A stretch of 61,420 bases of DNA, taken from Actinomycetes bacterium (GTDB lineage: Bacteria > Actinomycetota > Acidimicrobiia > Acidimicrobiales > GCA-2861595). The translations under genes and the position numbers were made by a program. Of this stretch, positions 29,934-61,420 are shown piece by piece (the stretch's first letter is position 1; every line of letters starts with the position of its first letter). The stretch lies in the NCBI GenBank assembly GCA_023264975.1, contig JAHFUS010000014.1, positions 1-61,420 of the forward strand. Direction: 5' to 3'. The notes beneath the pieces are model-generated. The model did no database searches, was not told the DNA's origin, and worked only from the letters and a program-made list of their open reading frames with translations.

Positions 29934-30323
29934 CTAGCCGAACGACGCTGTGGCCATCCCCACCATCGGCCGGTTCAGCCGGATGGCGCCGGTGGAACCG
30001 AGGAATGGGGCATCGCCGAAGGCGAACACGCCGCCGTCCGACGCCACGAGCCAGTAGCCGTTGAGCACGCCGATCGAGGGCGTGGGCGCCATCCCCACCA
30101 CCGGCTGGTTGAGCCGTAGGGCGCCGGTGGAACCGCGGAACACGGCGTCGCCGAAGGCGAAGACCCCGCCGTCGGACGCCACCAGCGCGTAGCCCTTGCC
30201 GGACGGCGTGGCGGTCGTCCCCACCACGGGCCGGTTGAGGCGGATCGCGCCCGTGGAGCCGCGGAACACGGCGTCACCGAAGGCGAACACCCCCCCGTCG
30301 GACGCCACCAGCCAGTAGCCGAC
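29934..30323 (-). pseudogene. Frame-shifted C-terminal part of the SBBP/Kelch protein: three GYW-FGDA repeats
   Basis: Encodes three 42-residue repeats of the type [19 protein letters not shown] ending at a TAG (29936-29934). It has no start of its own that makes sense: it continues the upstream protein in a +1 frame. The switch lies in the 15 or so bases around 30320-30335, where one frame reads Kelch ([12 protein letters not shown]) and the other reads [13 protein letters not shown] single-base error or mutation, or a 2-base loss, would explain it. The gene is either recently broken, mis-assembled, or translated by frameshifting. Confidence 0.7.
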
Positions 30324-33294
30324 GCCCGTCCTTCAGCATCGTCGAGTCGGTGGTGTGTCGGGGAACGCTCATGGCGCCGGTGGGCGTGAACGTGCCCGTG
30401 GCCGGGTCGTACAGGTCGGCGGTGTTGGTGTACTGGGTGAAGTCGCAGGTGCCGGGCGGCGCCACGCTGCACGTGCGTCCGCCCGCCACGAGCACCTTCC
30501 CGCTCCTCAGCAGGATGGCGGTGTGGAGGTAGCGCCGGGCCGACATCGTGCCCGTGGGCGTGAAGGTGCCGGTGTCCGGGTCGTACAGCTCCGCCGAGTC
30601 GAGCTGGGGAACGGCGTTGGCGCTGGTGTTGCCGCCGGTGGAACCGCCGGTCACCAGCACCTTGCCGTCGGGCAGGAGGGTGGCGGTGTGGGCGGAGCGG
30701 GCCGCGCTCATCGACCCCGTCGCCGACCACGTACCCGTCTTCGGGTCGTAGATCTCGGCGGAGGTGAGGGCGGCGCCCCCCTGGCGGTCGCGTCCGCCGA
30801 CCAGGAGCACCTTGCCGTTGGCCAGGAGCACCGACCGGGTGGCCACCCGCGCCACGACCTGCGCCCCGGTGACCTCCCAGGTGCCCTCGCCATAGGTGTA
30901 GCGGGCGACCGGGTTGGGCGGAGAGGTGCCGCCCGGCGTGGTGACCGTGATCGTGGCCACACCGGCGGTCGCGGCGGGAGCGATGGCTTGGATCTCCGTC
31001 TGCGACACCACCGTGAAGCCGCTCGCCACCACGGTGCCGAACCGCACGATCGAGGTATTGGTGAATCCGGCGCCGGAGATGGTGATTTTCGTGCCGGGAG
31101 GGCCACTACGCGGTGCGAGTGAGGTGACGAGCGGCCTGCCGGGCGTGAGGGGCGCCACCTTGAGCACGAAGGCGTTGTTCTCCTGGCCGGGCGGGGCCTG
31201 GAAGCCGTCCACGGCCGGGAAGTCGTCCGCGTTGAAGAACGAGGACTGCCCGGCCAGGTACCCGTTGCCCGAGGCGTCGACGGCCACGGCGGCGCCGGAA
31301 TCGGCGGCGCTGCCGCCGAAGGGCGCCCCGTGCACGAGGGCGTTGCCGGCCGGCGTCAACTGGGTGAGGAAGGCATCCGAGCTGCCGCCGCGCGACGACA
31401 CCGGGGTGGCGACGGGGAAGTCGACGGACGACGTGGTGCCCGCCACGTGGGCGCTCCCGGCCGGCTCCACGGCGACTGCGTTGGCCTGGTCGGGCCCCGA
31501 GCCGCCGAGCAGGGTCGAGTACAGCGGGCCCGACCCGGCCGGGTCGAGCTTGGTGACGAAGGCCTCGTCGCCACCCGCCCGGGTGGTCTGGAACGCCCCG
31601 GCTGTCAGCGGGAAGTCGTCGGAGCCGGTGATGCCGGCCACGTACGCGTTGGAGGCGGCGTCGAGGCCGATGCCGTTGCCGGCGTCGGCTCCGCCGCCGC
31701 CGAGGTAGGTGGAGTACGCGAGTGCGGACCCGGCCGGGTTCAACTTGGTGACGAACGCGTCGGTGGCGCCTGCCAGTGTGCCGCGCAACGCGGCTGCGAC
31801 GGGGAAGTTGGTGGACGACGTGTCGCCGGTGACGTGGGCGTTGCCGGCTCCGTCGACGGCGATCGCCCGGCCGGCGTCGGCGAGTCCACCGCCCAGGTAG
31901 CTGGAGTATGCAAGGGCCGAACCGGCCGGGTTGAACTTCGTGACGAAGGCATCGGTGGTCGCCGCGGCGCCCTTGGCCCCCTGGAACGCAGCGGCGACGG
32001 GGAAGTCGGCCGAAGCCGTGTCGCCGGTGACGTAGGCGTTGCCGGCGGCGTCGACGGCGACGCCGCGGCCCACGTCGCCCTGGTTGCCGCCGAGGTAGGT
32101 GGAGTACACCAGGGCCGATCCGCTCGGGCTGAGCTTGGCGAGGAAGGCGTCGGTGCTGGCGCCTGCTCCCTTGGCCGCCTGGACTGGCGACGCGGTGGGG
32201 AAGTTGGTGGAGGCGGTACTGCCGGTGACGTAGGCGTTGAGGCTGCCGTCGACGGCGATCGCCGTTCCGGCGTCGATGCCGTCGCCGCCGAGGTAGGTGG
32301 AGTAGACGAGCGCCGAGCCCGAGCTGTTGAGCTTGGTGACGAAGGCGTCCGACGCACCGCGACGGCCGGCCTGGAGCGGCGTGACGGTTGTGAAGTCGGG
32401 CGAGGCCGTCTGGCCCGTGAGGTAGGTGTTGCCTGCGGCGTCGGCCGCGACCCCGGCTGCCGAGTCGGCGTTCAGCCCGCCGAGAAGGGTGGAGTACACG
32501 ACCGCCGGGTCGATCACCAGCCGCAGCGAGCGGTCGTACCGGCCGAGCCGGAAGCCGATCCTGCCGTCGGCGCTCTTCGTGTAGGCCGCCTCCACCGGGC
32601 GGCGGGCCCCGCCGGTCTCCTGGTAGGCCACCGGGCGGCGATGGCGCAACCTGCCGGCCGGCGTGTCGATCACCAGGTCGCCGGCGTCGTCGATGGCGAC
32701 ATCGGTGGCCCCGTCGGTGGCCCCGTCGATGGCGACGGCGATCCTCGCCGGGTCGGCGCCGGGCGCCACCTCGAAGTCGTACTCGAGCACGCTGTGCTTG
32801 CCGTGGTACACGAGGTCGATCCCGGGGTACACGGCGCCGTACCGCACCTGCTCGTAGCTCGGGACCCCGGTGAGCCATGCCTTTTCCCCGGCCCCCCTCA
32901 GGTAGTTGGAGACGCCGGGGAGGCGGCGGCCCGTGGTGGCCGAAGCTTCGGCATCGCCGCCGGCCAGGTGCATCCGCACCTGGCCTGCGGTCCCGTCGCC
33001 CAGCCGGAACACCGTGTCGGGCCCGGTGACGAAGGCAGTGAAGCCCTCGCTGCGGACGAGGAACCCGTCGTCCGGGCCGGACTGGCCCGCGTTGGCCTCG
33101 AAGCGGAGGGGAAGGCGGCCGAATGCCCCCGCCGCGGTCGGGGCATCCACGCCCCCTCCGGGCGAGGCGGAGCGGAAGGCGACGGAGGACACACCCGCCA
33201 GCACGCCCACCACCATGAGCGAGGCGGCGACCGCCGCCAGCGGGACGAGCCGCCCCCGGGTCGGTGGGTGGGGTAGCGGTCGCTGGTTCTCCAC
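30274..33294 (-). CDS. Large secreted SBBP-repeat / IPT / Kelch protein (frameshifted near the C-terminus)
   Basis: 1006 aa as read to the premature stop. A signal peptide or membrane anchor ([21 protein letters not shown]) is followed by an SBBP-associated N-terminal domain, then seven SBBP beta-propeller repeats with the pattern YSTYLGGxxxDxGxxIAVD ... GNAYVTG. An IPT/TIG domain ([17 protein letters not shown]) and four or so Kelch repeats ([12 protein letters not shown]) complete it. GTG 33294 is preferred: longer versions begin with a basic stretch before the signal peptide. The last real residues are MLKDG; the following residues to the TGA at 30274 are out-of-frame noise. Likely a surface or secreted adhesive/binding protein; target unknown. 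Confidence 0.8.
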
Positions 33295-41342: not shown

Positions 41343-41374
41343 GGAGGTGTCCTCCCCTGGATAGCGGCTCCCGG

Positions 41375-41380
41375 TAGTCT
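41375..41380 (+). promoter_or_regulatory. -10-like TAGTCT before the L,D-transpeptidase gene
   Basis: TAGTCT lies 8 bases before ATG 41389, matching the leaderless pattern elsewhere in the window. No ribosome-binding site precedes this ATG. Confidence 0.5.
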
Positions 41381-41388
41381 GCCCCACC

Positions 41389-42873
41389 ATGTCGCCCTTG
41401 CGCTATAGCCGCCTTTCGGCCCGCCGGGCGACCCTCGCCGCCGCTGTGTTCCTGGTGGCGGCGCTGACGGCGGCGGTGGCGACGAGCGCCCCGGCCGCGG
41501 CTGCCGGCACCGGCGCCGGCACCGGCGACGGCACGGTCCTGGCCTTCGGTTCGGCGGGCTTCCTCGGGGCCCCGGCCATTGACTCCCTCCGGCTCCCGGT
41601 GGTGGGGATGGCCGCCACAGCCACCGGCAACGGGTACTGGCTGGTGGCCTCGGACGGCGGGATCTTCAACTACGGCGACGCCACCTTCCTGGGCTCCACC
41701 GGCGCCCTCACCTTGCGCCGGCCCATCGTCGGCATCGCTGCGCCCGCGCCGCCGCCGCAGGCGGGGTACTGGCTGGTCGCCGCCGACGGCGGCATCTTCG
41801 CCTTCGGCGTGCCCTTCTTCGGATCGACCGGCGGCCTCGCCCTGCGCCAGCCGGTGGTGGGCATGGCGCCCACCCCTACCGGCAACGGGTACTGGATGGT
41901 GGCGCGCGACGGCGGGGTGTTCGCCTTCGGTGACGCTCCATTCCTCGGGTCCATGGGCGGCACCACCTTGAACCAGCCGGTCGTCGGTATGGCGGCCACG
42001 CCGTCGGGCCGGGGGTACTGGCTGGTGGCGGCGGACGGCGGCCTGTTCTCGTTCGGCGACGCCCGCTTCCTCGGGTCGGCCGCCGGCCAGAGCCTGGCCC
42101 GCCCGGTCACGTCGATGACCTCCACCGTGAGCGGCGACGGCTACATCCTGGCCGCTGGCGACGGCGCCACCTTCGCCTTCGGCGACGCCGTGGTTGCCGG
42201 CTCGGGCACCGGCAGCCTGGCGCCCGGCACGTCGGTCGTGGCGATTGCCGGCCACCCCGGCGACGGGTACTGGCTGGCCGCCGGTCGCCCGACGCTCATG
42301 CTCGGGGCGGTGGGCCCAGGCGTGGAGAACCTCCAGAAGCGGCTGCTCGCCCTTGGTTACTGGGGCGTCGTCGACGGCAGGTACGGCACCCTCACCACGC
42401 AGCAGGTCTATGCCTTCCAGAAGGCCAACGGCCTGCCTCGCGACGGCGTCCTCGACGGCGCCGAACTCGGCGTCCTCGAGCGGGCTGCCCGGGTGGTGCC
42501 CCGTCTGAACAGCGGCCGCCAGGTCGAGGTCGACAAGACCCGCCAGATCATCATCGTGTCGGTCGACGGCCAGACGGAGTGGGTCTTCAACACCTCCACC
42601 GGCAACGGCAAGCCCTACGGCAACGGGGCCGTCGCCATCACCCCCGAGGGCCACTTCACCTTCTCCCGCCAGATCGACGGCTTGCGCATCTCCGCCCTCG
42701 GCGAGCTGTTCCGGCCGAAGTACTTCATCGGCGGCTACGCCATCCACGGCTCGCCCAGCGTGCCGGCCTTCCCCGCCTCGCACGGCTGCATCCGGGTCAC
42801 CAACGCCGCCATCAACTTCATCTGGGCCAACAACGTGATCCCGCTGGGGACGCCCGTCTGGGTCTATTCCTGA
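41389..42873 (+). CDS. Secreted L,D-transpeptidase (YkuD) with six GYW-FGDA repeats and a peptidoglycan-binding domain
   Basis: 494 aa. A signal peptide (about 1-39, AAALTAAVATSAPAAAA-like) is followed by six FGDA-type repeats (about 48-302). Next is a PG_binding_1 domain (VENLQKRLLALGYWGVVDGRYG). Last is a YkuD catalytic domain with H453 and the SHGCIRV motif, catalytic C467. It should form 3-3 crosslinks or attach proteins to peptidoglycan outside the membrane. The repeat domain opens with an FG strand and closes with a GYWLAAG strand, as a circularly closed propeller would. It converges on menE, 3 bases away. Confidence 0.9.
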   Translation: MSPLRYSRLSARRATLAAAVFLVAALTAAVATSAPAAAAGTGAGTGDGTVLAFGSAGFLGAPAIDSLRLPVVGMAATATGNGYWLVASDGGIFNYGDATFLGSTGALTLRRPIVGIAAPAPPPQAGYWLVAADGGIFAFGVPFFGSTGGLALRQPVVGMAPTPTGNGYWMVARDGGVFAFGDAPFLGSMGGTTLNQPVVGMAATPSGRGYWLVAADGGLFSFGDARFLGSAAGQSLARPVTSMTSTVSGDGYILAAGDGATFAFGDAVVAGSGTGSLAPGTSVVAIAGHPGDGYWLAAGRPTLMLGAVGPGVENLQKRLLALGYWGVVDGRYGTLTTQQVYAFQKANGLPRDGVLDGAELGVLERAARVVPRLNSGRQVEVDKTRQIIIVSVDGQTEWVFNTSTGNGKPYGNGAVAITPEGHFTFSRQIDGLRISALGELFRPKYFIGGYAIHGSPSVPAFPASHGCIRVTNAAINFIWANNVIPLGTPVWVYS

Positions 42874-45785: not shown

Positions 45786-45989
45786 CTACGGCTGCTTGGT
45801 GACCTGGGCCTTGGCCGTCTCGACCCGCTTGCGGCGGGAGTCCTTGGCCACGATGGCGGAGCTGGCGACGGCGAGCGCCACGCCGAGCAGGATCATCGGT
45901 GCGAGCCACGGCGAGGTGTCGCTCGATGAGCTGGCGTTCGTCGTGAGGGCGACGGCCGGCTTGTCGGCCACCCGGGGCGCACGTACCAC
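45786..45989 (-). pseudogene. C-terminal remnant of a surface protein, or a 67-aa single-span protein
   Basis: From GTG 45989 the frame encodes 67 aa with one membrane helix (WLAPMILLGVALAVASSAIVA) and a basic tail (KDSRRKRVETAK), a membrane-anchor layout. Upstream in the same frame, to about 46092, it continues as an Ala/Pro-rich linker typical of long secreted proteins, then meets an in-frame TGA. This suggests the last part of a larger anchored protein whose N-terminal part is lost. A genuine small protein starting at the GTG cannot be excluded. It is divergent from the large gene at 46097. Confidence 0.5.
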
Positions 45990-46096
45990 CTCGGGAGCCG
46001 GCGCGACGACCGGGGCCTGTGGTGCGGGCGCAGCGGCGACGGCAGGGGCGGGCGTGGCCGGCCCGGGCGTCGAAGGAGCGACGGGAGCAGCGGCGG

Positions 46097-48784
46097 ATGA
46101 TCACTGCCAGGACAACAGGACGGGTACGGGCGCTGGCCGTCTGTGCCGCCGTGCTCGGAGCGGCCACCGTGCTGGCGCCCAGCACGGTGGCCGCCCAGTC
46201 GAAGGCAGGCACGACCGCGACGCGGCCGAGCCACCTCGGCGGCGGCCTGCGGGAGGTGGGCAGGAGCGACCTCGGGGGCAAGGGCCTCAACGGTGAGCTG
46301 GCCGTGGTGGGAACGACGGCCGTCGTGGCCGCCGGCCTCAACGCCAGCGGCTCGTCGCACGCCGGCTTCTACAATCCGATCAACTGCCCGGACGTGTCGG
46401 TGAAGGTGGTGGACCTGTCCGACCCGGCTGCGCCCAAGGTCGTCTCCACCATCCCGCTGCCGGCCGGCGTGGTGGCCCTCGACGTGGCCGCGCTGCGGGT
46501 CAGCACGCCGGCGTTCAAGGGCGACCTGGCCGCCCTTGCCCTCGGTACGTGCAGCGCCGCCGGCAACGGCATCGAGAAGGGCGTGCAGTACTACGACATC
46601 ACCAACCCGGCCTCGCCGGCGCTCCTCGGGCGCTACCAGGCCGGCTCCGACAACGTGCCCCCAGCCGCCGGTCCGTGCAGCGCGGCCGCCCCCACCCGCT
46701 GCGCCGCGTCGCAGCACACGGTGCAGCTCGTGGCCCGGGCCGACGGGCGCGTCCTGTCCCTGTCGAGCAACCCGGGCGGCACCACCGCCCCCTCCGGCGA
46801 CCTTCGCATCGTCGAGGTCACCGATCCCCGGGCCCCCGTCCAGATCAGCGCCTTCCCGGCGCTGGCCCAGCGGCCCACCGCCGGCGGCGGGTTCTTCTCG
46901 CCCAACGGCTGCCGCTCCTTCTATATGGGCCACGACGGCGCGGCCAACGCCGACGGCACCAGGGCCCTGCTCGCCTACCTCGACGAGGGTGTCTTCTCGG
47001 CCGACCTGACCAACCCGGCCGCACCCACGCTGGCAGGCCGGTTCGAGTACCCGAAGGAGCGCACGCTGGAAGCGGGCGCCGGGTACGTGGCCTGGGCCGA
47101 GTTCGCCGGCCGCCAGCTCGGACTGGTGTCGGAGGAGGACTGGATCGCCCCCAACTCGACGGTCCGCATCGACTCGCCCGCCACCCTCGCCGGTTCGAAG
47201 TTCGCGTGCGAGGCCATGTTCACGCTCTACGACCCCGAGAACACGGCGCAGGTCTACCGCAAGCCCAACAGCCAGCTCCCCGGCGAGATGGTCTACGTCG
47301 GCCGGGGCTGCCCGGTGGCCGGCTCCGTCACCGACCCCCTGCTGGCCAACCCGCAGGCCAAGATCGCCGTGGTCGAGCGCAACCCGTCCGTGCAGACAGG
47401 CCTGAGCACGGGCATCTGCTCGTTCAGCGACCGGGTGCTGCGGGCCCAGCAGGCGGGCGCCACCGGCGTCATCTTCCTGGACTCCAGCACCTTCCCGTCC
47501 TTCTCCTCGGACGGTGTCCCCGCCGGCATCGACATCCCCGCCGTCATCATCGAGAAGCCGGACGCCGACGCTCTCCGCACGGTCCTGTGCCCCACCTACT
47601 CCGGTGGCGCGGGCGGCACCTGCACCGGTGGTCAGCAGGTCGCCGGCGCCATGGTGGACAAGGCCGGCGACTGGGGCGGCCTCCGGGTCCTCGACATGTC
47701 GAACCCGGCTACGCCCACCTCGACCGGAATCTACCGCACGCCCCGCTCGCAGGTGTTCCCGCCGCCGGACCTCGGCGTCTACTCCGTCCACCACGCCATC
47801 GCCAGGGGGAACCGTGCCTACGCAGCATGGAACTCCGACGGCGTCCGGGTGCTCGACCTCACCACCCCCACGCCCACCGAGATCGCCTCGTTCGTCCCGG
47901 CCGACACGGCGGACCCATCCGGGAGCGGGAACCTCCCGGCCAAGGCTTTCGTCACCGGCGTCGACACCATGCCGGGCTACGTCGTGATCTCCGACATCAA
48001 CTCAGGGCTCTACGTCCTCGAGTTCGGCGCCGGCTACTGGACGGCGGCCGCCGACGGTGGCGTCTTCGCGTTCGGCGCCTCCGACTTCTTCGGGTCCATG
48101 GGAGCCACCAAGCTCAATCAGCCCATCGTCGGACTGGCTCCCACGCCCACCGGCAAGGGCTACTGGCTGGTGGCCGCCGACGGCGGCATCTTCGCCTTCG
48201 GCGACGCCAGCTTCTTCGGCTCCACGGGAGCCATCAAGCTGAGCAGACCGATCGTGGGCATGACGCCCACGCCGTCGGGGCTCGGCTACTGGTTGGTGGC
48301 GGCGGACGGCGGCATCTTCGCCTTCGGCGACGCCCGCTTCCTCGGCTCCACCGGCGCCCTCGCCCTGAACTCGCCGATGGTGGGCATGAGCCCGACCCCA
48401 TCGGGCAGGGGCTACTGGCTGGTGGCGGCGGACGGCGGCATCTTCGCCTTCGGCGACGCCGCTTTCGTGGGGTCGACCGGCGCCACGCGCCTCAACCGTC
48501 CCATCGTCGGGATGGCGTCATCGGCCACCGGCAAGGGCTACTGGCTGGTGGCTTCGGACGGTGGGGTCTTCGCCTTCGGCGACGCCCGCTTCGCCGGGTC
48601 CACCGGTGCCATCAAGCTCAATTCGCCCATGGTGGGTCTCCAGGCCACCCCGACCGGCAAGGGCTACTGGATGACGGCGGCGGACGGCGGCATCTTTGCC
48701 TTCGGCGACGCCCTCTTCCTCGGCTCCACCGGCGCCATCAAGCTCAACTCACCGGTGGTGGGTCTGGGCGTGTTCCCGCGCTAG
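46097..48784 (+). CDS. Secreted LVIVD-repeat / PA-domain protein with six GYW-FGDA repeats
   Basis: 895 aa. A signal peptide (VRALAVCAAVLGAATVLAPSTVAA) is followed by LVIVD-type propeller repeats (VVDLSDPAAPKVV, YDITNPASPALLG, IVEVTDPRAPVQI, DLTNPAAPTLAG, VLDMSNPATPTS). A protease-associated-like insert lies near residues 400-510 (ICSFSDRVLRAQQAGATGVIFL). The C-terminal ~250 residues are six 42-residue repeats. No catalytic motif is seen, so binding or display at the surface is likely. Paired cysteines fit an extracytoplasmic protein. ATG 46097 fits the signal peptide. Its TAG shares a CTAG with the convergent tadG-like gene. Confidence 0.85.
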   Translation: MITARTTGRVRALAVCAAVLGAATVLAPSTVAAQSKAGTTATRPSHLGGGLREVGRSDLGGKGLNGELAVVGTTAVVAAGLNASGSSHAGFYNPINCPDVSVKVVDLSDPAAPKVVSTIPLPAGVVALDVAALRVSTPAFKGDLAALALGTCSAAGNGIEKGVQYYDITNPASPALLGRYQAGSDNVPPAAGPCSAAAPTRCAASQHTVQLVARADGRVLSLSSNPGGTTAPSGDLRIVEVTDPRAPVQISAFPALAQRPTAGGGFFSPNGCRSFYMGHDGAANADGTRALLAYLDEGVFSADLTNPAAPTLAGRFEYPKERTLEAGAGYVAWAEFAGRQLGLVSEEDWIAPNSTVRIDSPATLAGSKFACEAMFTLYDPENTAQVYRKPNSQLPGEMVYVGRGCPVAGSVTDPLLANPQAKIAVVERNPSVQTGLSTGICSFSDRVLRAQQAGATGVIFLDSSTFPSFSSDGVPAGIDIPAVIIEKPDADALRTVLCPTYSGGAGGTCTGGQQVAGAMVDKAGDWGGLRVLDMSNPATPTSTGIYRTPRSQVFPPPDLGVYSVHHAIARGNRAYAAWNSDGVRVLDLTTPTPTEIASFVPADTADPSGSGNLPAKAFVTGVDTMPGYVVISDINSGLYVLEFGAGYWTAAADGGVFAFGASDFFGSMGATKLNQPIVGLAPTPTGKGYWLVAADGGIFAFGDASFFGSTGAIKLSRPIVGMTPTPSGLGYWLVAADGGIFAFGDARFLGSTGALALNSPMVGMSPTPSGRGYWLVAADGGIFAFGDAAFVGSTGATRLNRPIVGMASSATGKGYWLVASDGGVFAFGDARFAGSTGAIKLNSPMVGLQATPTGKGYWMTAADGGIFAFGDALFLGSTGAIKLNSPVVGLGVFPR
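48025..48781 (+). repeat. Six 126-bp coding repeats (GYW-FGDA modules)
   Basis: Tandem in-frame 42-codon units, each with GYWLVA, DGGIFAFGDA and GSTGA blocks. The same unit occurs at about 41530-42294 (six, L,D-transpeptidase), 29937-30323 (three, minus) and 61062-61300 (two). The DNA is similar enough between units to allow recombination. Confidence 0.85.
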
Positions 48785-58266: not shown

Positions 58267-60330
58267 ATGCCGTACCCGCCCGCACCCCGGACCGACGTGG
58301 TCGACGACGTGCACGGCCGGCCTGTGCCCGACCCGTACCGGTGGCTGGAGGACCCGTCGTCCCCGGGGACCGAGGCGTGGTCCGTGGCCCAGGACGACCT
58401 CGCGCGGTCGCACCTCGACGAGCTGCCCGGCCGGGAGCACCTGCGCGCCCGCCTGCGCGAGCTGCTGGCGGTGGGGCTGGTGACGGTGCCGGTGCACAGG
58501 GGCGAGCGGGCCTTCTTCCTTCGCCAGGGCCCCGACCAGGAGCACCCGGTGCTGACGGTGCGGGAGGCGGACGGCGGCGAGCGGGTGCTGATCGACCCGA
58601 GCGCCCTGAGCGACGACGACAGCGTCACCCTCGACGGCTACGACCCGTCGCCCGACGGCAACCGGCTCGCCTACCTCCTGTCCGACAGCGGGGACGAGGA
58701 GGCGTCGCTGTGGATATTGGACGTGGCGACCGGTGACGCGCTCGACGGTCCGATCGACCGGGTCCGCTACGGCTCGCTGGCCTGGCTTCCCGGTGGCGAG
58801 GAGCACTTCTACGTCCGCCGGTTGCCGCCCTCGGAGGTGCCCGCCGGCGAAGGGCACTTCCACCGCCGGGTGTACCGCCATCGGGTGGGGGCCGACCCGT
58901 CCACCGACCTGCTCGTCTTCGGCGCCGGCCGTGACAGGACCGAGTACTACTCGCTCGATCTCTCGGCCGACGGGCGCTGGCTGGTGGTCTCCGCCTCCAA
59001 GGGAACGGCCCCTCGCAACGACGTCTACCTGTGCGACCTCCAGGCCGGCGCGGCGGCCGGGTGGGCCCCGCTGCAGGAGGACGTCGATGCGATGACCTCG
59101 GCGCGTGTGGCCCACGACGGCCGCCTCTACGTCCTCACCAACGCCGGCGCCCCTCGCAACCGGTTGGCCGTGGCCGACCCCGCCCACCCCAGGCTGTGGA
59201 CCGATCTGGTGCCCGAGTCCGACGCCGTGCTGGAGGACTTCGCAGTCACCGACGATGCAGTCGTCGTGGTGTCGACCAGCCACGCCGTCGCCCACGTCAC
59301 GGTCCACGACCGGGAGACCGGGGTGCCGGGGCCCACCGTCGGCCTACCCGGCCTCGGGTCGGTGAACGGGTTGGTGAGCAGGCCCGAGGGTGGTCACGAG
59401 GTCTGGCTCGGCTACGCCGACTTCCTGAGCCCGCCCGCGGTGCACCGCCTCGACGCCCGCACCGGCGAGCTGGCGCTGGAGGCGGGCGCCCCGGGCCGGG
59501 TCGACGTTCCGGGCGTTACCGCGGAGCAGCTCACCTACGACTCGGACGACGGTACCGAGGTGCGTATGTTCGTCCTGCGGCCGCCCGCCGGCGATGGCCC
59601 GGACGCAGAAAGTCCGCGCCCCACCGTGCTGTACGGCTACGGCGGGTTCGGCGTCTCCCTCACCCCCCAGTACAGCGCCGGCATCCTGGCGTGGGTCGAA
59701 CAGGGTGGCGTGTACGCGGTGGCCAACCTCCGGGGCGGCAGCGAGGAGGGTGAGGCCTGGCACCGGGCCGGCATGCGTGAGCACAAGCAGAACGTGTTCG
59801 ACGACGTGGCCGCCGCCACCCGCCGGCTCGTCGACAGTGGCATCACCACGGCGGGCCAGCTGGCAGTCAGCGGCGGCAGCAACGGCGGCTTGCTGGTGGG
59901 GGCGGCGGTCGTCCAGCATCCCGAGCTGTACGCGGCGGCGTTGTGCAGCGCTCCCCTGCTCGACATGGTGCGCTACGAACGGTTCGGTCTGGGCGTCACC
60001 TGGAACGACGAGTACGGCACGGTCGACGACCCGGTGGAGGCGGGCTGGCTCCTGTCCTACTCGCCGTACCACCACGTGAACGAGGGCGTGCGCTACCCGG
60101 CCGTGCTGTTCACGGTGTTCGATGCCGATACCCGCGTCGATCCGATGCATGCCCGCAAGATGTGCGCCGCCCTCCAGCACGCGACCTCGGCTCCGTTCGG
60201 CGACGCGCCCGTGCTGTTGCGGCGTGAGGAGCAGGTGGGTCATGCCTCGCGCTCACGTACCCGCACGGTCGAGCTGGGCGTCGACACGGCGGCCTTCCTC
60301 GCCGCCCGGTTGGGATTGCGCCTACCCTGA
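58267..60330 (+). CDS. Prolyl oligopeptidase (S9A family)
   Basis: Cytosolic serine peptidase that cleaves short peptides after proline. 687 aa, normal for S9A. A seven-bladed propeller (about 75-400) precedes the alpha/beta-hydrolase domain. Catalytic triad: S538 in GGSNGGL, D621 in DADTRVD and H659 in QVGHAS. The N-terminal DVVDDVHGRPVPDPYRWLED and the YGYGGFGVSLTP segment are family hallmarks. No signal peptide. Confidence 0.93.
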   Translation: MPYPPAPRTDVVDDVHGRPVPDPYRWLEDPSSPGTEAWSVAQDDLARSHLDELPGREHLRARLRELLAVGLVTVPVHRGERAFFLRQGPDQEHPVLTVREADGGERVLIDPSALSDDDSVTLDGYDPSPDGNRLAYLLSDSGDEEASLWILDVATGDALDGPIDRVRYGSLAWLPGGEEHFYVRRLPPSEVPAGEGHFHRRVYRHRVGADPSTDLLVFGAGRDRTEYYSLDLSADGRWLVVSASKGTAPRNDVYLCDLQAGAAAGWAPLQEDVDAMTSARVAHDGRLYVLTNAGAPRNRLAVADPAHPRLWTDLVPESDAVLEDFAVTDDAVVVVSTSHAVAHVTVHDRETGVPGPTVGLPGLGSVNGLVSRPEGGHEVWLGYADFLSPPAVHRLDARTGELALEAGAPGRVDVPGVTAEQLTYDSDDGTEVRMFVLRPPAGDGPDAESPRPTVLYGYGGFGVSLTPQYSAGILAWVEQGGVYAVANLRGGSEEGEAWHRAGMREHKQNVFDDVAAATRRLVDSGITTAGQLAVSGGSNGGLLVGAAVVQHPELYAAALCSAPLLDMVRYERFGLGVTWNDEYGTVDDPVEAGWLLSYSPYHHVNEGVRYPAVLFTVFDADTRVDPMHARKMCAALQHATSAPFGDAPVLLRREEQVGHASRSRTRTVELGVDTAAFLAARLGLRLP

Positions 60331-60422
60331 GCCGAACCGAACCGGTCCCGGCGTGCGACAGACGTTACGGTGACCAGCGTGCCGGGCCACGGTCCCGGTG
60401 ATCCGACAAGTCAGGAGGACGG

Positions 60423-61420
60423 GTGGCAGCAATGAGGACAAGCGGGGGACCGCGCCGCGTACGCGTGGCGGCGGCTGTAGGAGTGGCGTTGGGACTCGTG
60501 GGCGTGGGCATGTCCGCCACGCCGGCCGGCGGCATCCAGCCGCCGGCGCCGGCCAAGGCCAAGGCGCTCCTGAAGGACACCGCCGGCGCCGACCGGGGCG
60601 GTGTCCTGTTCGCCCAGGAGGCCGGCGCCATCCGGGTGCAGGTGGCGGCTACCGGGCTGACTCCGGGCTGGCACGGCTTCCACGTGCACACCACGGGCAA
60701 CTGCACGGTGACCAGCGGACTCGCTACCGACCCGTTCGGGGCGGCCGGGGGTCACCTCGGTTCCGCCCTCGGCCACGGCACGCCCGGCCATGACGGTGAC
60801 ATGCCGCTGCTCTACGCAAACGCCGACGGCGTGGCCCGCGCCACCTTCCGCACCGACAACTTCACGCTGGCCCAGGTGCTCGACGCCGACGGAAGTGCCG
60901 TCATCGTGCATGCGGCAGCCGACAACTACGCCAACATCCCTGCCGCCCGCTACGACACCAAGCCGGCCGGAGGCACATTCCCAGACGACACCACCAAGAA
61001 CACCGGCGACTCCGGGTCCCGCCAGCGCTGCGGCGTGGTGCAGAGCGGCGGCCTCGGCTTCGGCGCCGGCTACTGGATGGCGGGCGCCGACGGCGGGGTG
61101 TTCGCCTTCGGGGACGCCAAGTTCCTCGGCTCGGCCGGCGCCACCAAGCTGAACCAGCCGGTCGTGGGTATGGCAGCTACGCCCAGTCGGGCCGGCTACT
61201 GGCTGGTCGCCAACGACGGCGGGGTGTTCGCCTACGGCGACGCCAAGTTCGCCGGCTCCACGGGCGGCACCAAGCTCAACCAGCCGGTGGTCGGGCTCGG
61301 GGCCCCGACGGCCGACGCCGCCACCGTGCTCAACGACACCACCGCCAAGGCGATGGGCACGGTCCGCTTCAGCCAGGAGGCCACCCAGGTGCGGGTCGAG
61401 GTGGTCGCCAAGGGTCTGAC
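60423..61420 (+). CDS. Secreted Cu/Zn superoxide dismutase-like protein with GYW-FGDA repeats (3' end cut by window)
   Basis: The frame runs open to the window end, 332 codons. A signal peptide ([23 protein letters not shown]) is followed by a Cu/Zn SOD domain with [38 protein letters not shown] and RQRCGVV, so the copper and zinc ligands and disulfide cysteines appear intact. Two FGDA repeats come next (about 61062-61300), then what looks like the start of a second SOD domain ([21 protein letters not shown]). Start is GTG 60423, close to AGGAGG (60413-60418), or ATG 60432. Confidence 0.85.

Follow-up and report, generated by a model that had tools for sequence, protein, structure and literature searches.

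Two Cu/Zn superoxide dismutase domains in one actinobacterial protein, the second probably inserted in a six-bladed propeller

What kind of protein is encoded by a superoxide dismutase (SOD) gene that breaks off at the very end of a contig, and does the second SOD domain that seems to begin there really exist? The window, i.e. the whole stretch of DNA that was analysed, is the entire contig C76 (61,420 bases), and its last gene is a forward-strand frame without a stop codon up to the final base (Table 1). The first-pass annotation had read this frame as a complete Cu/Zn-SOD domain (SOD1) followed by two GYW repeats and the start of another SOD domain (SOD2), and both parts of this reading are borne out: Pfam Sod_Cu covers residues 59-206 (E 3.5e-28, 99.1 bits; cut-off 28.9), the repeat profile finds two repeats of 42 residues each, and the SOD profile detects the 32 residues of SOD2 that lie within the window from this fragment alone (61323-61418 of C76; E 2e-6). 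The frame goes on in contig C139 (L003) of the same genome, whose first 120 bases are the last 120 of C76. The joined gene comprises 1893 bp and encodes 630 amino acids in the order signal-like stretch, SOD1, two GYW repeats, SOD2 and four GYW repeats. Past the window the frame neither ends early nor lacks metal ligands; SOD2 is complete on C139 and gives a full Sod_Cu match of its own (E 1.5e-29, 103.6 bits; cut-off 28.9). In the alignment with E. coli SodC both domains contain the four copper His, the zinc His/His/His/Asp set, the disulfide Cys pair and the active-site Arg, which for SOD2 means the HVH pair, the bridging His, the zinc His, a further His and the Asp, the fourth copper His, both Cys and the Arg (the LGHG zinc His of this genus is gap-shifted in this alignment). 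We take these ligand, Cys and Arg residues of SOD1 and SOD2 to have the roles named here. Reading the signal-like N-terminus (60423..60533) by eye, we saw no lipobox Cys; the protein would be secreted.

Table 1. Features of the tandem SOD gene within the window.
Feature	Position	Strand	Basis or remark
Shine-Dalgarno-like AGGAGGA, putative	60413..60419	+	Precedes the GTG start (60423); read from the sequence
Tandem SOD gene, 5' part, GTG start	60423..61420	+	Remainder on C139, bases 121-1015 including the stop codon
N-terminus, basic then hydrophobic, signal-peptide-like	60423..60533, end approximate	+	Read from the sequence
SOD1, complete Cu/Zn-SOD domain, all ligands	60564..61040	+	Pfam PF00080; E. 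coli SodC alignment
368-bp tract, identical in SOD2 (C139 bases 122-489)	60663..61030	+	Sequence comparison
GYW repeat 1, predicted propeller blade 1	61068..61193	+	Repeat profile
GYW repeat 2, predicted blade 2 and inner strand of blade 3	61194..61319	+	Repeat profile; blades from the L035 model
Contig join, 120 bases same as the start of C139	61301..61420	+	Exact identity
SOD2, first part	61323..61420	+	Domain runs on to C139 base 499

The contig most likely broke here because SOD1 and SOD2 share 368 identical bp, the window ending one base before the second copy. With such a perfect repeat at the break and nothing but the 120-bp overlap to link C76 and C139, SOD2 might be a misjoin or a repeat-caused copy in a gene that truly contains a single SOD. 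We reject such an artefact as exceedingly improbable on the grounds of single-contig homologues and gene order. Five other genomes carry the tandem within one contig, with SOD copies that differ, and ahead of the identical tract there are 38 differing positions between the N-terminal parts of SOD1 and SOD2. Gene order flanking the join agrees with that in G001, a genome of the same genus: its single-contig gene (on G001:C36) is flanked by matches to three upstream genes of C76 and three downstream genes of C139, with order and strand kept. An S9 peptidase gene (58267-60330) adjoins the SOD gene; it has counterparts in G002 and G003 but none among the frames selected from G001. The other end of the window has no overlap with another contig of the genome. 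The assembly is compatible with further copies in this strain beyond the two, and with an identity short of an exact 100%.

The order SOD, two GYW repeats, SOD, four GYW repeats is shared by five other genomes, namely G001, two genomes of the same family (G002 and G003), one from another family of the order (G034) and one from another family of the class (G543; tandem at L334:1294-3285); the six tandem genomes span three families. Related loci were taken from the best 80 of 178 relatives. By alignment, metal ligands are complete in all 10 SOD domains of the five order members. In G543 SOD1 is intact, but bridging His, zinc Asp and Arg have been lost from SOD2, so two active sites are not required in every member. 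Within the own family the tandem is present in 4 of 6 genomes, and G004 and G005 have one SOD each, in a frame without GYW repeat; in the family of G034 one of two genomes gave a SOD match, namely the tandem. With at most the best nine candidates per genome scored, we obtained SOD matches in 57 of 397 genomes of the order (tandem in 5 of those 57), in 28 of 395 genomes of the class sample (tandem in 3: the genome of the window, G000, as well as G001 and G543) and in 36 of 396 genomes of the phylum sample, where two full SODs in one frame occur in G000 and, besides, only in G926, the latter without GYW repeats. Tandem SODs of the SOD-GYW-SOD kind are rare, and the first-pass annotation was right to call the arrangement unusual.

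Two Cu/Zn-SODs per frame are likewise found in three further loci, but there the domains are adjacent and no GYW repeats are present. These are L098:432-1604 from a Thermoplasmata MAG, L056:4078-5124 from the MAG of bacterium LB3_2, in which both domains have the same protein sequence, and an independent tandem in G926 (L345:46-2517, minus strand), in which two adjacent SODs are followed by CW_binding_2 stretches. They lie elsewhere in the tree and therefore probably have separate origins.

Within its own genome the tandem gene is the only Cu/Zn-SOD gene detected, since there is no further PF00080 gene. An Fe/Mn-SOD search, which matches 12 of 14 control genomes, found nothing in this genome or in any of the five other tandem genomes (85-97% complete). 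A Ni-SOD is present at G000:C126:16715-17071 (L352; E 1.5e-44; controls 0/14). The tandem SOD is probably the extracellular SOD of this genome.

The first-pass annotation had placed the tandem SODs around a surface repeat, and here its reading needs revising. Among 27 uncut GYW frames of the own genome (from 30 of its 62 matches, with one edge-cut frame left out and repeated frames counted once), 20 contain exactly six repeats; the seven others have four repeats in three cases, one of which is the second part of the tandem gene itself, and seven, five, three and one repeats in the rest. Two frames of the window (41365-42870 and 45947-48781) contain uninterrupted six-repeat arrays, and against them SOD2 aligns as a single insertion between repeats 2 and 3. 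The same alignment, again with SOD2 as one insert, is obtained with five six-repeat arrays from phages, less cleanly for L160. Elsewhere in the window (29937-30341, minus strand) a short GYW array contains a TGA in frame; it probably represents a remnant or a gene that was cut short.

Structure prediction points the same way. An AlphaFold2 model of a relative (L035), extending from repeat 1 to the end and including SOD2 but without SOD1, reached a mean pLDDT of 86.4 and a pTM of 0.77, with some low-confidence loops; a first model, covering almost all of the L035 protein and built from five alignment rows, had a pLDDT of 48.7 and was left unused. The model has three strands per repeat, and SOD2 is flanked by the inner strand (83-87) and the GYW strand (260-265) of blade 3. 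The final strand (417-423) is free and could close the ring by completing blade 1. Among the structure matches listed by VIA-align 2, which were mostly SODs, residues 7..425 of the model matched megalin (8jxi; Z 17.7, rmsd 3.7, 235 aligned) and LRP6 (3s8z; Z 16.1, rmsd 3.9, 231 aligned), and the insert matched mycobacterial SodC (1pzs; Z 18.4, rmsd 3.5, 158 aligned). The propellers of megalin and LRP6 are of the six-bladed YWTD class. The modelled propeller part is like them in fold, but identity is ~10%, the GYW protein gives no Pfam match to them, and their propellers contain no SOD insert. By sequence the GYW repeat is hard to place: in the tandem protein and the GYW proteins of the window no Pfam family matched it above cut-off, its best match in the PDB is an RCC1-like protein (E 0.07), and a weak RCC1-like model match was seen in 2 of 75 phage frames (best E 3e-4).

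Six repeats of ~40 residues that match solved six-bladed propellers are what a six-bladed fold calls for, and at the level of prediction this is what we find. The 2+4 repeats are most likely one YWTD-like six-repeat propeller that carries SOD2 as an insert in blade 3, and the six-repeat counts, the insertion alignments and the model favour such a split propeller over a loose GYW spacer between two SODs. SOD1 would be placed ahead of blade 1 and SOD2 in the hairpin of blade 3, between its inner strand and its GYW strand, so that both SODs would run into the equivalent blade strand, two blades apart. We also considered an origin by duplication of a unit of one SOD and two repeats. It is not supported, because repeat 1 is just a little closer to repeat 3 (68%) than to the remaining ones (60-64%), and repeat 2 resembles repeat 4 (65%) no more than repeat 3 (66%).

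The company that GYW repeats keep elsewhere suggests what the propeller may do. We found 81 GYW frames on phage contigs (L147-L150 and L156-L231, IMG/VR), a number that includes partial frames and three apparently identical ones (L188-L190), with two (43 frames), three (30), six (5), four (2) or twelve (1) repeats. Counts of 2, 3, 6 and 12 account for 79 of the 81; mostly there are two or three repeats, C-terminal on amidase-type lysins. Pfam was run on 75 of the 81 frames (all except L149, L174, L189, L190, L229 and the second L158 frame), and Amidase_2 was found in 53 of these, GH25 in one and VanY in one; endolysin-named PHROGs models match L156, L148 and L158. Of the two six-repeat GYW proteins in the window, one has PG_binding_1 and an L,D-transpeptidase domain (YkuD), and the other a PA domain and LVIVD repeats. 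Another tandem SOD, that of G926, bears three CW_binding_2 stretches. Because the same repeats are so often found on phage lysins, the GYW propeller is probably a wall-binding anchor for the two SODs, although modules of phage lysins can be used for purposes other than wall binding. It would bind the cell wall or envelope and hold both SODs there, where they would clear extracellular superoxide. A six-blade ring assembled from one or several chains would match the repeat counts in phages. Two long phage proteins without Pfam match carry their repeats in mid-chain (L159:1459-4533 with 12 and L160:2194-4524 with 6), and there too the propeller seems to be inserted in another protein.

The closest known protein allows a different function for the propeller. 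DrSOD of Deinococcus radiodurans (DRA0202; PDB 9m58, 9m59), the top Foldseek match, is described in PMC12362111 as one SOD followed by a calcium-bound six-bladed propeller that is a Ca-dependent lactonase. Like the tandem protein, it is a Cu/Zn-SOD of bacterial origin that has both metal sites and shares its chain with a six-bladed propeller, and the layout of a SOD followed by such a propeller is seen here too, in six repeats and a model, i.e. in sequence and prediction only. By analogy, the propeller could be an enzyme like the DrSOD lactonase, and the protein would be bifunctional rather than an anchored SOD. However, DrSOD has a single, N-terminal SOD and a propeller without inserted SOD, and according to PMC12362111 this propeller is SGL-type with a central Ca and lactonase activity. 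Sod_Cu was the only Pfam family above cut-off in our scan of the tandem protein, which gave no match to SGL or to any other propeller-enzyme family, and DrSOD is matched in sequence over its SOD part alone. Moreover, the GYW repeat occurs on many unrelated proteins, above all phage lysins, as expected of a binding module. An enzymatic propeller is therefore unlikely in our view, and we favour a wall anchor.

Several SOD domains in one extracellular chain are otherwise known from the CSRPs of animals, which, as described in PMC13017621, have 4-12 Cu-only SOD domains with very short linkers and without zinc site. In the tandem protein, in contrast to these Cu-only proteins, there are two SODs with zinc His and Asp in both, one of them predicted to lie inside a propeller, a part that CSRPs lack, and two GYW repeats stand between them (extra copies being left possible by the assembly). 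The nearest solved SOD domains by sequence are those of mycobacterial SodC (NF047631; PDB 1pzs, 6adq, 7rh5), which, unlike the tandem, has a single SOD; SOD1 and SOD2 score 120.8 and 119.9 bits, below the NF047631 equivalog cut-off of 230 bits. Among the matches listed for openly licensed PMC papers, we found no report of bacterial tandem SODs, of GYW repeats or of any propeller with a SOD insert, and DrSOD and CSRP were the nearest systems. A text search of PMC8382915 gave no mention of tandem or fused arrangements, of domain architecture or of repeats. Both parts, SOD and propeller, are of known kinds; their nesting and the concerted evolution described below appear new.

Why the two SODs are so alike was addressed with codon alignments, in which the core begins two residues ahead of GWHGF and the N part comprises the first 35 columns; an alignment that placed all single SODs on SOD2 was set aside. 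Core DNA identity between SOD1 and SOD2 is 99% within G000 and 95% within G001, where the two copies lie on a single contig, vs. 85-86% between these genomes. The N part behaves in the opposite way, with 78% identity for SOD1-SOD1 and 77% for SOD2-SOD2 between the two genomes and 58-61% for SOD1-SOD2. Quartet sites of this pair are 19 orthologous vs. 4 concerted in the N part and 0 vs. 42 in the core. Over all genome pairs the concerted pattern is ahead in the core in 10 out of 10, and the contrast between N part and core has p <0.05 in 8 of 10 (G002/G003 0.44; G003/G034 0.31). The core tree pairs the SODs inside each of five genomes (support 81/87 to 100/100), and a clade of all SOD1 is rejected (p 1.2e-5), whereas the N-part tree places all SOD1 together, unsupported (50/0), with within-genome pairs rejected for G000 (p 1.2e-5) and G001 (p 0.004). 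In the whole-domain tree the SOD1 of G000 and G001 pair (100/99), and the SODs of G002, G003 and G034 pair within their genomes. G543 is a counter-case, as its two SODs are not each other's nearest in the tree; a single clade of all GYW-linked SODs is absent from the tree, yet not rejected (p 0.37). As the cores pair within genomes while the N-terminal parts follow position, these patterns are best accounted for by recurrent intragenic gene conversion, which would have an edge close to the GWHGFHVH codons and would keep the catalytic cores alike.

The same trees could be read as SOD2 having been copied from SOD1 into the propeller separately in each lineage, rather than having arisen once, with gene conversion afterwards: SOD1 and SOD2 of G034, G002 and G003 are mutually nearest, G543 stands apart from the others, and one clade of all is not shown. 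However, in 6 of 6 genomes SOD2 interrupts the array after repeat 2 and before repeat 3, with a similar junction, and the N-terminal parts of G000 and G001 group by position, with within-genome pairs rejected; at least in these two genomes conversion after a shared duplication is therefore needed. We judge separate copying to be improbable. Constraint alone might also account for the likeness of the cores if one SOD did the work and the other served structure, copper handling or dimer contact. The lost ligands of SOD2 in G543, next to an intact SOD1, would fit such a division, but all ligands are kept in both domains of five genomes, and the cores are alike in DNA too (99% in G000, 95% in G001). 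This likeness at the DNA level, beyond that of the protein, points to conversion, and we consider a single working SOD to be rather unlikely. Both SODs would be active, and something may be gained from having two.

Taken together, we consider it fairly probable that the gene encodes a secreted Cu/Zn-SOD with two complete domains on one six-bladed propeller, probably bound to the wall or envelope, whose cores are kept alike by gene conversion. More tentatively, and with somewhat less than even confidence, a SOD may have been copied into the hairpin of its own propeller anchor, which would give a surface-held pair two blades, or a third of a turn, apart; conversion would keep the cores alike across several genera while the N-terminal strands diverge by position, and the 2, 3, 6 and 12 repeats of phages would suggest trimers of two, dimers of three and single chains of six. 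If this is true, two of the three positions offered by a trimer of two-repeat lysins are combined by the SOD gene in a single chain. It is unusual for an enzyme domain to sit within a propeller blade next to another copy of itself, and the concerted evolution of two domains in one bacterial enzyme makes it testable why two active sites persist. The uncharacterised GYW repeat, abundant in this genome and common to phage lysins, would likely be a six-bladed wall-binding propeller.
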